Positions 59,776-63,989 of a stretch of 64,000 nt of DNA are shown here, one piece after another (position 1 is the stretch's first letter; every line of letters starts with the position of its first letter). The notes beneath the pieces were generated by a model. It saw nothing but the letters and a program-made list of their open reading frames with translations. It searched no databases and was not told where the DNA came from. Both the position numbers and the translations under genes were made by a program. This DNA comes from Gracilibacillus lacisalsi DSM 19029 (GTDB taxonomy: Bacteria > Bacillota > Bacilli > Bacillales > Amphibacillaceae). The stretch covers positions 1-64,000 of the forward strand of contig NZ_KB898672.1 in the NCBI RefSeq assembly GCF_000377765.1, given 5' to 3'.

Positions 59776-60615
59776 TCATAATATAGGAGAATTATAGCTA
59801 GCTATCTCTGTTTTTTCTCTATTAACCTTCATTATAACCATTGTAATATCATCCTTTTGTGGAAGACCTTTTGTAAAAGATTCCAGGGAATGAGTAACTA
59901 CATTCTCTAGTTCATTAATATCTAAATCTACGTTTTCGATTAACATTTTCTCTAACCTCTCGGTGCGGTACATGTCTCCATTTTCATTTTGCGCTTCTGT
60001 TATCCCATCTGTATAGAAAAATAACAAATCCTCTTCTTCTATTTTAACTGTGTTTTGATTATACACTACGTCTGGGAGTCCACCTAACATAACTCCCTTA
60101 GCAACTGGAATGTCTACCAGTTGTTGGCTAGAGTGAACAACTAGTGGTAAGCCATGACCTGCACTGGCATAACTTAGTTCCTGCTTTTCAGGATCCCAAT
60201 CAGCACATAAAACCGTGACAAATGATCCTAAAACGCGCAAGTCTTCATATATAGCATTATTCATCGCAGTCAGTGTATCTGCAGGCCCCTTCGTAGTTTC
60301 GGCAGCACTTCGAAAGGCACCTCTCGTTAAGATCATTAGCATTGCTGCTGGAATTCCCTTCCCCATCACATCACCGATTACAATTCTTAATTTTCCATTT
60401 GGTAATAGGTAAAAATCATAATAATCACCACCAATTAATCTTGCTGGAATTGATATACCTGATACCGTTCCATTCTTAATAGCAGGTTCATTTCCATTCA
60501 GTAGTTTCATTTGTATGTTACGTGCTAATTTAATCTCTCTTTCTAATGTTCTATCTAGTTCTCCATTAGATGCTTCTTTTTCTATAGATATTTCTCTTCT
60601 AAACAATTTAACCAC
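59776..60615 (-). CDS. SpoIIE/RsbU-type PP2C serine phosphatase
   Basis: 279 residues. A short N-terminal helix (LEREIKLARNIQMKLLNGN) corresponds to the switch helix before the PPM domain in RsbU-like enzymes. The catalytic domain has all metal ligands: GGDYYDF (Asp 64), IGDVMGKGIPAAM (Asp 82), SAGHGLPL, FYTDGITEAQN (Asp 203) and KDDITMVIM (Asp 255/256). It would dephosphorylate a STAS protein, presumably the one coded just upstream (overlap 8 bp). There is no PAS, GAF or other sensor domain fused, so input must come from a partner. The start is GTG 60615 or TTG 60606, undecided. Last gene of the operon; no clear own terminator. Confidence 0.9.
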   Translation of the reverse strand: MVKLFRREISIEKEASNGELDRTLEREIKLARNIQMKLLNGNEPAIKNGTVSGISIPARLIGGDYYDFYLLPNGKLRIVIGDVMGKGIPAAMLMILTRGAFRSAAETTKGPADTLTAMNNAIYEDLRVLGSFVTVLCADWDPEKQELSYASAGHGLPLVVHSSQQLVDIPVAKGVMLGGLPDVVYNQNTVKIEEEDLLFFYTDGITEAQNENGDMYRTERLEKMLIENVDLDINELENVVTHSLESFTKGLPQKDDITMVIMKVNREKTEIASYNSPIL

Positions 60616-60934
60616 CTACCTCAAGGAGCGATTTCATTACTTGAAAAACTCCTAAAGTTTCAAATAATTCCTCTATCTCATTATTCATCCCATCTAGCTT
60701 AACTTTAAAATTTTTATTTTTTGCTTCATGAACTAAGTTAATAATAGCTCCTATTCCTGTTGAATCGATAAATTCTAGCCTCTCAAAATTAACGATCACC
60801 AATTTGGAACTAACTTCTATTTCTTGAATTTTTTTAATGAATGGGTCCATTGTAGAATAATCTAAAACCCCACTAACGTACAAAGTACAAACATTTCCCT
60901 CTGATTTTTTATATACTTCCAATGTATCATACAT
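60608..60934 (-). CDS. STAS domain protein (anti-sigma factor antagonist-like)
   Basis: 108 residues, one STAS domain: VCTLYVSGVLDYSTMDPFIKKIQ, LVIVNFERLEFIDSTGIGAIINLVHEAKNK. The phosphorylation motif is D57-S58-T59-G60 (D-S-x-G in SpoIIAA and RsbV), so it should be phosphorylatable by an RsbW/SpoIIAB-type kinase and dephosphorylated by the next gene's product. It lies 11 bp after the sensor gene and overlaps the phosphatase gene. No kinase gene is visible within the window. Confidence 0.9.
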   Translation of the reverse strand: MYDTLEVYKKSEGNVCTLYVSGVLDYSTMDPFIKKIQEIEVSSKLVIVNFERLEFIDSTGIGAIINLVHEAKNKNFKVKLDGMNNEIEELFETLGVFQVMKSLLEVGG

Positions 60935-60945
60935 AACATGGCCTC

Positions 60946-62550
60946 CTATTCGAAATCATCCTTGTAATCCAATGTAAACTGCTCTAAATTTTCCAATAGT
61001 TTCTTCGAAATTTCAGATAAAGATTCTGATTGACTGTGCAGTGATTTTAATAAGTCTGATAAAGTAATCGTAATTTCCGTTGTTGTAATGGAACTATGCT
61101 TTAATACTTCACGAAGATGCTTAATATTAGCCACTGTCTCTTGATCCTCGATCTTTTCATCCAACATTTTTTTCTCAATTTGATCAAGGAGATAATTCAT
61201 CTCACCCAATCGCTCTCTCGTTTCAGTCGTAGTAGCCATAGACATTGTATATACTTTATCGACAGAATTATTCGCTTCAGACTCAAGTAAATAAGCATGT
61301 TTCTCAGTTTGAATCGCTTGATCACTAGTTTCGGAAAGTACACGATTTAGTGAATTAGCTAGCTTATTGGTGCTGTTTGATAGACTTTCTAACTCACTTT
61401 TGTCTTTTACAGAACTTTGAACCGTAAAGTCTCCTTGTTCCATTTGAAGAATTTGACCAATTATTTTTTGAATATTTTTATAAATATTATTAAAGAATCG
61501 TGTTGTAAAGAAAAGTACAATAACCAAAGCTAAAATACTAATTCCAATTAGTATAAATAATTGCTTATACATAGGAGCTTTCATTTTTTCGTAGTCTAAT
61601 GCAACATAGAGTACTTTGTTATCTTCAATCGGTATAAATGATTTATAGATTTTTTCACCATTATAATTTTCGACATAATTTGCACTTGATGGATGATCAA
61701 TCATACTAATTAGTAAATCAGTATCTTGAACATCCTCAAATTTAAATTGACCATTTACCACTTTTGACAATGGAGCGTAGACACTTTCGGTAAGTGACGG
61801 ATCAGCATATACACGTGGATCTAATAGCGCTATTTCCTTAGCAAAATCGTTGGAGCTAGTTACTTGCTCAATCCATGTTTCCGTACCTACTTTTTCAGTA
61901 AATTGGTAGACTTCATTCGCTTCAATATAAGGATTTATCAGGTAATCCGTACCAAGGACGTAATAGTAAGCATATTTAAAAAATTCGGGTTTTTGATCAT
62001 CAGATGTTGATTCTGTAATATAAAGAATGGCAACATTTTCAGTAATATAACTGACAGAATATCTTAATTCATCGGTAATTTCCCCATCCATAAATTTCAA
62101 CAATGCTTCCGAAGCTTGTGGATTAAAATCTCCAATTTCAAATCCAATCTCATTAGGGTTTGTAGATTTCCGGCCTACAAAATCATTTTCCAATCTCTGA
62201 AATAGTGTGATACCACTAATGCCTAATGCTTCTCGATATTTTTCTAATTCATTATTATTAATTTCAGACAATTCCCTGCCATATAGCTGATCAGCTATAT
62301 ATTTTGCATATGATTCCAACTTTAAATCTATTTGATGTTCTATTTCTAGAGATGCTAATTCAGTTTCCTTAACTCCTTGCTGGATGGAAGTAGAGATTGA
62401 TTTAGCCTCTCGCTCTATTTGTTTCTCGATATTATCAACCATAATGAATGCTTGGACACTAGCAGAAGCTAATGCAACAATCCCCATAAACAATAATATA
62501 GTTATGGTGAATTTCTTTAACAACGATTTGTTTTTTGTTTCATTTTTCAT
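60946..62550 (-). CDS. membrane sensor with extracellular domain and HAMP, no kinase or MCP output domain
   Basis: 534 residues. TM1 about residues 14-38; large external domain ~39-328, double-Cache-like by length and pattern (DYLINPYIEANEVYQFTEKVGTETWIEQVT; NGEKIYKSFIPIEDNKVLYVALDYEKM); TM2 ~329-350 (LFILIGISILALVIVLFF); HAMP ~351-404 (NIQKIIGQILQMEQGDFTVQSSVKDKSELESLSNSTNKL); then ~130 residues of coiled coil. The MCP hairpin tip is absent, and there is no histidine kinase. It probably relays an external signal through the coiled coil to the STAS/phosphatase pair. The start overlaps the ligase stop (ATGA). A chemoreceptor remnant is an alternative. Confidence 0.85.
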   Translation of the reverse strand: MKNETKNKSLLKKFTITILLFMGIVALASASVQAFIMVDNIEKQIEREAKSISTSIQQGVKETELASLEIEHQIDLKLESYAKYIADQLYGRELSEINNNELEKYREALGISGITLFQRLENDFVGRKSTNPNEIGFEIGDFNPQASEALLKFMDGEITDELRYSVSYITENVAILYITESTSDDQKPEFFKYAYYYVLGTDYLINPYIEANEVYQFTEKVGTETWIEQVTSSNDFAKEIALLDPRVYADPSLTESVYAPLSKVVNGQFKFEDVQDTDLLISMIDHPSSANYVENYNGEKIYKSFIPIEDNKVLYVALDYEKMKAPMYKQLFILIGISILALVIVLFFTTRFFNNIYKNIQKIIGQILQMEQGDFTVQSSVKDKSELESLSNSTNKLANSLNRVLSETSDQAIQTEKHAYLLESEANNSVDKVYTMSMATTTETRERLGEMNYLLDQIEKKMLDEKIEDQETVANIKHLREVLKHSSITTTEITITLSDLLKSLHSQSESLSEISKKLLENLEQFTLDYKDDFE

Positions 62551-63989
62551 TCGCTCTCACCTTGAAGTAATTTTCTTAATGTTGTTTTATCAGCTTTACC
62601 GGAAACAACTGGTAGATCATCAATTATCTTAATATGATCTGGCACCTTAAACCTAGCTAACTTATTGGTGCAATGTTGGTATAAACCATTACCATCTATT
62701 TCCTCTTGTAAAACAACAAATGCAACTATTTCTTCTCCATATACTTCATGATTGGAACCAACAACTGCTACCTGCCTCACTGCTGAATGTTCTAACAAAC
62801 ACTCTTCTATTTCATATGGGATTACTTGTTGTCCACCCTTTTTAATCATGTCTTTTTTTCTACCTATAATAACCAGCTTGCCGTCCGCTGTTTCACGTAC
62901 TAAATCTCCAGTCAGTAACCATCTATCCTCTGTTAAAACCTCTTTTGTAAGATCCGGTCTGTTGTAATATCCTGAAAACACAGTAAGAGACTTAATTACA
63001 AATTCTCCATCCTCTATTTTATAATCTATTTCATTTACAACCTGCCATTCTAGTCCTTCTCGAACATTACATGTCATAATGCCTCCGCCTTCTGTAATAC
63101 CATATATACCGATGAAATCTGTATCACTCATAAGCGGGTATAAATCATGTTCACCTTCAGATACCATTTCTCCTGCTAAAAAACACTCCTTAATATTTTG
63201 AAAGACTTCTGGTTGCAAGTGTTGAGTAAGTTTATACATCCCCCGCAAAATGGACGGTGTGGTTACTAGTTTATTAGCTGAGATTCTATGCATAAAATCG
63301 ACAATTTTAGGAAAGTCAAACATATCAGGTACACCTACTCTAAATCCATAACGCATTCCGCTAAGTATACTTACCATACCAAATCCCACTGTTTGCGGCG
63401 GAATACTTACAACACTACTTCCTTCTTGCCTATTTAACATCCCAGAAATAACTTCTATATTTTTAAATAAAGCTTCTTGACTCAACATTACTCCCTTTGG
63501 CATTCCCGTACTACCTGAAGTGAATAACATAAAATGTTGTTTAAACTCATCTAGCTGTGTGGGTTTACCGGTCCAATCCTTCGCATCCCAATTGAAGCAG
63601 TCTTCAGATTCAAAAACAGTACATTTCACACTATTGTCTTCGATCCAATTGTTAATGATATTTAAAAACGAAACCCCTATTAATTCTTTAACCGTAAAAA
63701 TCAGATGCGGTTTTGCACTAGTTAAAACGGCTGTTAAATCCGATTCTTTATATAACGGGTTCAATGGCACTACTGTCCCCCCAGCAGAATTAATCGCAAA
63801 AATTAATGCAAAGTAAGAAAGTGGATGAGGTGATAAAATAGCAACTCTTTTTCCCTTAAGATCACCATAATCTTTTAATAGATTAATATATTCATTGGAC
63901 AGTTGAAGTAAATCTTTATTGGTGTAATCGTTCTTAAAAGTACTGATAGATATATTGTCAGCGTATTTTTCATTTAAAATAAAATTCAT
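62547..63989 (-). CDS. AMP-forming acyl/aryl ligase (ANL superfamily)
   Basis: 480 residues. Motifs: P-loop FTSGSTGMPKGVMLS (156-170), A5 YGITEGGG (296-303), A7 LLTGDLV with Asp 362, A8 GRKKDMIKKGGQQVIPYEIE (377-396) and the catalytic Lys 465 in SGKADKTTLRK. It activates a carboxylic acid as acyl-AMP and passes it to CoA or a carrier protein. The protein is shorter than typical fatty acyl-CoA ligases (~510-560), nearer to ligases acting with carrier proteins. Only 11 nt upstream of the ATG are in the window and no Shine-Dalgarno is seen, so the operon may begin further right. The substrate is not deducible. Confidence 0.92.
   Translation of the reverse strand: MNFILNEKYADNISISTFKNDYTNKDLLQLSNEYINLLKDYGDLKGKRVAILSPHPLSYFALIFAINSAGGTVVPLNPLYKESDLTAVLTSAKPHLIFTVKELIGVSFLNIINNWIEDNSVKCTVFESEDCFNWDAKDWTGKPTQLDEFKQHFMLFTSGSTGMPKGVMLSQEALFKNIEVISGMLNRQEGSSVVSIPPQTVGFGMVSILSGMRYGFRVGVPDMFDFPKIVDFMHRISANKLVTTPSILRGMYKLTQHLQPEVFQNIKECFLAGEMVSEGEHDLYPLMSDTDFIGIYGITEGGGIMTCNVREGLEWQVVNEIDYKIEDGEFVIKSLTVFSGYYNRPDLTKEVLTEDRWLLTGDLVRETADGKLVIIGRKKDMIKKGGQQVIPYEIEECLLEHSAVRQVAVVGSNHEVYGEEIVAFVVLQEEIDGNGLYQHCTNKLARFKVPDHIKIIDDLPVVSGKADKTTLRKLLQGESE

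Follow-up and report, generated by a model that had tools for sequence, protein, structure and literature searches.

A conserved operon of Bacilli that may couple tetrahydropterin synthesis to a partner switch behind a cyclic di-GMP riboswitch

Why should a biosynthetic acyl-AMP ligase share an operon with a membrane sensor, a STAS-domain protein and a SpoIIE-type phosphatase? The question is raised by four minus-strand genes near the right-hand edge of a 64,000-nucleotide stretch of the Gracilibacillus lacisalsi DSM 19029 genome (4.41 Mb), which we call the window (positions 1 to 64,000 of contig NZ_KB898672.1, here C11). A first-pass annotation of the window had reported these genes and their tight spacing, and both hold, with a 4-base overlap, an 11-base gap and an 8-base overlap measured between successive genes. 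It had also supposed that the system continues past the window. Extension of the contig to the right bore this out: the four genes are the 3′ end of an operon of ten minus-strand genes with intergenic gaps of -8 to 26 bases, the remaining six lying beyond the window edge on the same strand and including a carrier protein and a kinase-like ATPase upstream of the ligase.

The answer that we favor, with a probability of about 0.6, is that this operon responds to cyclic di-guanosine monophosphate (c-di-GMP) and joins tetrahydropterin synthesis to a partner switch, acting as a device that controls motility and sessility.

A ten-gene operon behind a c-di-GMP riboswitch

All C11 features described here lie on the minus strand, and coordinates beyond the window continue its numbering on C11. 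The operon opens with GTP cyclohydrolase I (FolE; 67772-68386, start probably at 68338; TIGR00063, 232.8 bits against a cut-off of 181.6), followed by a tandem 6-pyruvoyl-tetrahydropterin synthase (PTPS; 66921-67745, two stretches matching PF01242) and a short-chain dehydrogenase/reductase (SDR; 66211-66921; PF00106, 168.1 bits). FolE, PTPS and SDR follow one another in the textbook order of tetrahydrobiopterin (BH4) synthesis, and the set for a BH4-type pathway is complete, the N-terminal half of the PTPS retaining a CX5HGH motif that we take to be the mark of the BH4-type enzyme. The C-terminal half scores 117-119 bits to the rat and human 6-pyruvoyl-tetrahydropterin synthases and about 35-38 bits to QueD, and we read the operon enzyme as BH4-type rather than QueD. 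Because the genome has a separate QueD gene and a FolE2 gene elsewhere, the operon FolE and PTPS look dedicated, and on the same grounds we lowered housekeeping pterin supply as a candidate role. The product would thus probably be a pterin of the tetrahydrobiopterin type.

Two groups of genes with possible roles in modifying this product stand further downstream. An alpha/beta hydrolase (64243-65289) resembles AntI, Ayg1 and dihydroxypseudooxynicotine hydrolase, enzymes that cut carbon-carbon bonds beside ketones, and our guess is that its target is the side chain of the pterin. It is followed by an acyl carrier protein (ACP; 64006-64233; PF00550, 41.3 bits) and by the ligase (62547..63989), an ANL-superfamily enzyme with Pfam matches to AMP-binding (138.6 bits) and AMP-binding_C (61.8 bits). 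The ligase motifs SGSTG, GD and GK.DK are conserved among 27 aligned sequences; profile and homology matches gave no clear substrate.

The first-pass annotation had described the system as having no kinase, and in this it was mistaken. An RsbW/SpoIIAB-like ATPase (HATPase; 65286-66194; PF13581, 38 bits) lies 1.3 kb upstream in the same operon and was missed, together with the pterin genes and the riboswitch, because all of these are outside the window. The HATPase has SpoIIAB-type ATP-binding residues, its N-box and glycine motifs are conserved among relatives, and its profile matches SpoIIAB (27 bits, E 2e-5). A structural model of a relative (from locus L029; mean pLDDT 77.5) has a SpoIIAB-like fold, with TM-scores by target for its C-terminal part of 0.74-0.78 against SpoIIAB and up to 0.90 against RsbW, and a chain of the SiaB-SiaC complex (6kko) is also among the fold matches. 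On these residues and this fold, we predict that the HATPase is the kinase of a partner switch. The STAS protein (60608..60934; Pfam STAS, 53.4 bits) is of the anti-anti-sigma type, and its DSTG phosphorylation motif is kept at a level of at least 95% in 35 aligned sequences, as are the GGDY, GDVMGKG and DDIT motifs of the phosphatase. The latter, a SpoIIE/RsbU-type PP2C serine phosphatase encoded by the last of the ten genes (59776..60615; PF07228, 167.6 bits), has SiaA as its best NCBIfam match, at 48.7 bits and far under the cut-off of 700. Since the motifs of STAS protein, phosphatase and HATPase are all conserved, the operon set can form a partner switch. The absence of a sigma gene that had been annotated extends to all ten operon genes, and no sigma factor was noticed in the gene lists of relatives, which were read by eye with no sigma profile run. 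In L070 (Pfam HD_5), as in L073 and L086 (HDIG above cut-off), the HATPase occurs as a fusion with an HD-GYP-type domain. One HATPase subfamily, whose matches fall mainly within profile positions 136-310, occurs in 42 of the 398 genomes of our phylum sample, often as proteins of about 400-470 or 700-730 amino acids.

The sensor (60946..62550) has two predicted transmembrane helices by hydropathy, at about residues 9-39 and 325-357, which bound an extracellular domain of about residues 36-322. It gave no Pfam match above cut-off, with HAMP reaching only E 0.19, and HAMP was significant in 9 of 10 relatives having other outputs. In the AlphaFold model (mean pLDDT 80.9, pTM 0.53) the ectodomain matches Cache-type domains, the first lobe clearly and the second less so, which argues for a Cache-type extracellular lobe between the two helices. 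Fold matches include the receptors for citrate, formate and malonate and the periplasmic domain of Chlamydia RsbU, a protein in which a sensor part and a phosphatase are joined in one chain. Inside the cell only HAMP and a coiled coil follow, in line with the annotated lack of a kinase or methyl-accepting chemotaxis protein output. About 31 matches of the sensor input domain have the length of fusion proteins; among the 13 that we examined, the domain is fused to GGDEF-EAL in nine and to a histidine kinase in four.

In the folE leader, a c-di-GMP-I riboswitch (68505-68591; 78.1 bits) is followed by a terminator (about 68421-68450). The match to the GEMM-I family, RF01051, is full-length and well above the Rfam gathering score of 35 bits. 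A second riboswitch of this class (77081-77166; 80.7 bits), likewise followed by a terminator, precedes a group that encodes a second SpoIIE-type phosphatase (SpoIIE2; 75968-76768), FapA with a Jag_N domain (73882-75933) and a second STAS protein (STAS2; 73554-73913). In most relatives FapA and STAS2 come directly after the first phosphatase. The genome has six c-di-GMP-I riboswitches in total, these two included. Among the remaining four, a GGDEF gene comes after one, and a NarL-type regulator gene and then a Wzz-like gene (by eye) come after another. The riboswitch at the NarL-type regulator is at G000:C1:400545-400631 (L095), and similar regulators are found downstream of the module in L048, L050 and L056. 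We know of no described case of a c-di-GMP-I riboswitch before pterin synthesis genes, and none was found in the literature as judged from titles and the opening parts of abstracts.

Distribution of the operon and its riboswitches

To place the locus among its relatives, we counted a full sensor as a match above 600 bits in a sample of 397 genomes of the order. It is present in 18 of them, the source genome included, and these loci carry the STAS protein and phosphatase in all 18 cases, pterin genes in 17 and the ligase in 13, so the ligase is an optional part. Ligase, sensor, STAS protein and phosphatase are contiguous in that order in 11 of the 18, so that the arrangement is not due to chance. 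In the family sample, where the sensor exceeds 300 bits in 12 of 159 genomes (one copy interrupted, L015/L057), the ligase and the STAS-phosphatase pair are each found in 9 of 12 loci, PTPS with SDR in 7, and all four window genes in one cluster in 7. The first-pass annotation had allowed that the ligase might stand apart in most relatives; these counts go the other way, and the link between a biosynthetic ligase and a Cache/HAMP sensor, STAS protein and PP2C phosphatase in one operon is conserved. The order sample, unlike the family sample, shows pterin genes to be more constant than the ligase. When named genomes were searched with the ligase, 18 loci were obtained, 16 of which have PTPS, SDR, HATPase, hydrolase, ligase, sensor, STAS protein and phosphatase together, a sample that favors the ligase because the ligase led the search.

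Five further loci with FolE-PTPS-SDR-HATPase, sensor and FapA were found in the class (L102-L106). Four of them lack ACP and ligase, and one of these four (L104, with a weak sensor match) also lacks the hydrolase. Within the class sample, HATPase matches exceed 300 bits in 7 of 398 genomes, most other matches covering only its C-terminal part. In the phylum sample (398 genomes) the full sensor was found only in the source genome, the other eight matches being fusions or partial. We conclude that an operon of ten to twelve genes, as judged from gene content and order, is conserved across several genera of Bacilli, its metabolic genes keeping their order across genera.

Duplicate loci (L049, L051, L053, L058, L060, L078-L081 and our own L004) were dropped before counting and represent their genomes in the order and family samples, whereas the near-copies L037/L044 and L042/L045 were counted as separate loci. 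Sensor matches below 600 bits, among them the shortened one in L067, stand outside the 18-locus counts; in that genome (G169) transposase-like genes (by eye) lie immediately upstream of the truncated sensor gene. Other arrangements include two ligase/ACP/hydrolase sets in one rearranged locus (L085), ligase-sensor pairs apart from pterin genes (L053, L054) and a sensor alone (L057). Their neighbors include a TAXI/TRAP transporter at L054 (Pfam) and L053 (by eye) and an EcsC-family gene at L054 (Pfam) and L057 (by eye). Upstream of the module, in whole or in part, are a KaiC-like ATPase, a small winged-helix-like gene and a PocR/GAF/LuxR-type regulator in L064 (Pfam) and in L055, L047, L050, L065 and L072 (by eye).

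A riboswitch of the c-di-GMP-I or I-GGC type precedes the operon in 29 of 36 pterin-type loci, with three in tandem in L039. Ten loci have the signaling core with no or remnant pterin genes, and a riboswitch is close by in five of these (L052, L066, L070, L072 and L107). Genes for EAL proteins adjoin L031, L037, L055, L083 and L105. By the rule used, 23 of 25 leaders have a terminator and two do not. A segment after the aptamer is complementary to the terminator arm, which weakly suggests an OFF-switch: the proposed antiterminator reached p <= 0.05 in 4 of 23 leaders and P1 pairing was significant in 3 of 23, where the antiterminator controls were letter shuffles and the leaders are related to each other.

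Some ties to motility are seen in gene neighborhoods. In L048, genes for MotA and MotB (above the NCBIfam cut-off) and a chemoreceptor-like gene (below it) are directly upstream, and in L066 the module sits between FliD-FliS genes and the HPF gene, FliS and HPF matching above cut-off and FliD at 397 against 444. A search with the SigD consensus TAAA-N13-17-GCCGATAT gave 0 matches in L001, and we therefore claim no motility-sigma promoter.

Exchangeable and constant parts of the operon

We next asked which parts of the operon follow the presence of the ligase, using trees of 35 pterin-type loci, 28 with ligase and 7 without. ACP and STAS2 were left out, and L104 was excluded because it lacks the hydrolase. 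In the hydrolase tree the ligase label changes once, with a support of 98. The tree of the whole sensor requires 5 changes (shuffled mean 6.5, lowest 4), and a single clade was not rejected (p 0.223). The sensor was split into its ectodomain and cytoplasmic part after this result, with few ligase-free loci at hand, and the ectodomain then required 2 changes, as low as in 0 of 300 shuffles, while the cytoplasmic part required 5, as low as in 26 of 300. One clade was rejected for the cytoplasmic part (p 0.0035); for the ectodomain the approximately unbiased test did not reject one clade (p 0.135), yet such a clade is not thereby shown.

The remaining proteins behave differently. One clade was rejected for HATPase (4e-6), PTPS (1e-49), SDR (5e-6) and STAS protein (1e-4), for FolE (0.010) and FapA (1e-4) on 32 loci each, and for SpoIIE (7e-8) on 33 loci, 5 of them without ligase. 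Each half of the HATPase gave the same outcome (p 0.0003 and 0.010). With a simpler model, applied earlier to 33 loci, the sensor had required 3 changes, the hydrolase 1, and HATPase, SpoIIE and PTPS 5 each. Furthermore, the ectodomain follows the hydrolase class even in loci without any ligase. From this pattern of labels, the hydrolase, ligase/ACP and ectodomain behave like a cassette that is exchanged while the core stays constant. Such a pattern is expected if the ligand of the ectodomain depends on the hydrolase/ligase branch of enzymes. Physical linkage could contribute to it, but linkage alone is the weaker account because the HATPase, which is the neighbor of the hydrolase on its other side, does not follow.

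These results raise a more specific version of our reading, which we regard as possible and put forward tentatively. Here the operon would be a self-contained signal system of Bacillota, in which a decorated tetrahydropterin (acylated in many species) is made, exported and read by the ectodomain encoded beside the decorating enzymes; enzymes and ectodomain would be swapped together over the constant pterin and partner-switch core, giving rise to different signal types, and c-di-GMP would gate the whole. In AgrBDC-type cassettes, a synthesis enzyme and the extracellular part of a receptor likewise vary together over a constant core. The molecule here would be small rather than a peptide, and in contrast to AgrBDC the evidence so far is a statistical pattern.

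Proposed mechanism, competing accounts and known systems

Taking the gene content as a guide, we infer the following course of events. FolE, the tandem PTPS and the SDR would make a tetrahydrobiopterin-type pterin, which the hydrolase, in many species together with the acyl-AMP ligase and carrier protein, may modify or supply with an acyl group. The Cache-type sensor may read the modified tetrahydropterin and, like the sensor part of Chlamydia RsbU, would control the phosphatase, here by way of its coiled coil. The RsbW/SpoIIAB-like ATPase would phosphorylate the STAS protein and the SpoIIE-type phosphatase would take the phosphate off, so that the phosphorylation state of the STAS protein would free or bind a partner, which is probably not a sigma factor. 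Candidates for this partner are FapA, a c-di-GMP enzyme and a nearby response regulator.

Several observations weigh against this reading. The functions of the operon genes were assigned from sequence alone, and, by eye, the N-terminal half of the PTPS is without the Asp-His pair of the C-terminal half. No riboswitch match was found in 7 of 36 pterin-type loci (L029, L034, L035, L036, L037, L044 and L104), four of which are instead directly preceded by an EAL-like gene (Pfam was run for L037 alone), and 5 of the 10 core loci with no or remnant pterin genes also have none (L055, L067, L071, L073 and L077). The antiterminator of the G. lacisalsi folE leader itself has p 0.232, leaving the direction of the riboswitch weakly supported. 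Motility genes were noticed beside only two loci, the L048 and L066 cases above. Some signaling cores have no pterin genes (for example L055, L066, L070-L073, L077 and L107), which indicates that the switch itself does not require pterin synthesis. Finally, reading the gene lists by eye brought to light no PruR, a component of the proteobacterial pterin system compared below, next to the loci, with no PruR search made.

A different account, unlikely in our view, is that the sensor detects a carboxylate from the environment and the ligase uses the same compound as its substrate. The two would form a use-and-detect pair, and pterin synthesis would be a separate service of the regulon. The citrate, formate and malonate receptors among the sensor fold matches favor this, as do the ligase-sensor pairs in L053 and L054, with no pterin gene in the fetched stretch, and the TRAP-type transporters that adjoin the pair in L054 and lie between sensor and STAS genes in L062 (Pfam), with look-alike transporter genes in L053 (by eye). 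However, TRAP-type transporters stand beside only three non-redundant loci, and where a locus has no ligase for it to pair with, the ectodomain still follows the hydrolase class. The frequency of the genes cuts both ways, since pterin genes are found more often than the ligase in the order (17 versus 13 of 18 loci) and less often in the family (7 versus 9 of 12).

It is improbable, to a greater degree, that the operon supplies a tetrahydropterin as cofactor or antioxidant while the partner switch only times its making or use. The FolE-PTPS-SDR gene order fits such a role, and the operon FolE, as the sole PF01227 match in the genome, could also serve folate. BH4 is a known cofactor, as stated in the sections consulted of a 2026 review (PMC13259868). 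Nevertheless, the genome has no match to the aromatic amino acid hydroxylases (PF00351, a search that did not extend to nitric oxide synthase), the conserved genes include no client enzyme, and the co-segregation of ectodomain and hydrolase would be left unexplained. It is very unlikely that metabolic genes hitchhike here on an ordinary stress module of the RsbRST/SigB-like kind: although the STAS protein, PP2C phosphatase and HATPase are relatives of RsbV, RsbU and RsbW, no sigma gene accompanies them in the operon or was noticed by eye in relatives, the metabolic genes are conserved in order across genera, and a sigB/rsb-like cluster, which the first-pass annotation had considered as a possible direct upstream neighbor, is found on contig C5 (names read from the sequence apart from PF07228).

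The reading of a c-di-GMP-responsive pterin and partner-switch operon can also be set beside known systems. With the SigB/Rsb and SpoIIA systems of Bacillus it shares a STAS protein, an RsbW/SpoIIAB-like ATPase and a PP2C phosphatase, and it differs from them in having no sigma gene in the operon and in its separate Cache/HAMP sensor, two STAS proteins, FapA, pterin genes and c-di-GMP riboswitch. The layout of SiaABCD in Pseudomonas has in common with it a HAMP sensor, PP2C phosphatase, STAS protein, kinase and c-di-GMP link. Compared with that system, sensor and phosphatase are separate proteins here, biosynthetic genes are added, and no GGDEF gene is among the ten, GGDEF-EAL genes occurring only as neighbors of some loci (on SiaABCD, see PMC8457831). 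PruA-PruR-DcpA of Proteobacteria is a c-di-GMP-linked pterin signaling system in which one periplasmic sensory domain occurs on either GGDEF-EAL proteins or histidine kinases, according to the consulted sections of the same review (PMC13259868), which also cites a role for cyanopterin in cyanobacterial phototaxis. The likeness lies in the tie of a pterin to c-di-GMP and in one sensory domain carried by GGDEF-EAL proteins or histidine kinases, whereas the output here would be a partner switch and the host belongs to Bacillota. Membership of the PruR-DcpA system was rejected, as its WX7E motif is in 0 of 25 sensors, and we keep it as an analogy.

A search of titles and the opening parts of abstracts, which did not cover subscription papers and preprints, turned up no description of this operon. 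The main text of PMC13259868 contains neither 'Bacillus' nor 'Gram-positive', and the sections consulted, which treat c-di-GMP-linked pterin signaling for Proteobacteria, leave Gram-positive bacteria out. In several genera of Bacilli, a dedicated BH4-type pathway and a full partner-switch set appear to stand in one operon behind a c-di-GMP riboswitch. The arrangement could point to functions of FapA/DUF342, of the broad HATPase family and of the Cache-type input domain of GGDEF-EAL proteins. We suggest that the operon may be an unrecognized pterin signaling system for the choice between swimming and settling and, if its product is the ligand of the sensor, it would represent a new class of small-molecule signal in Gram-positive bacteria.

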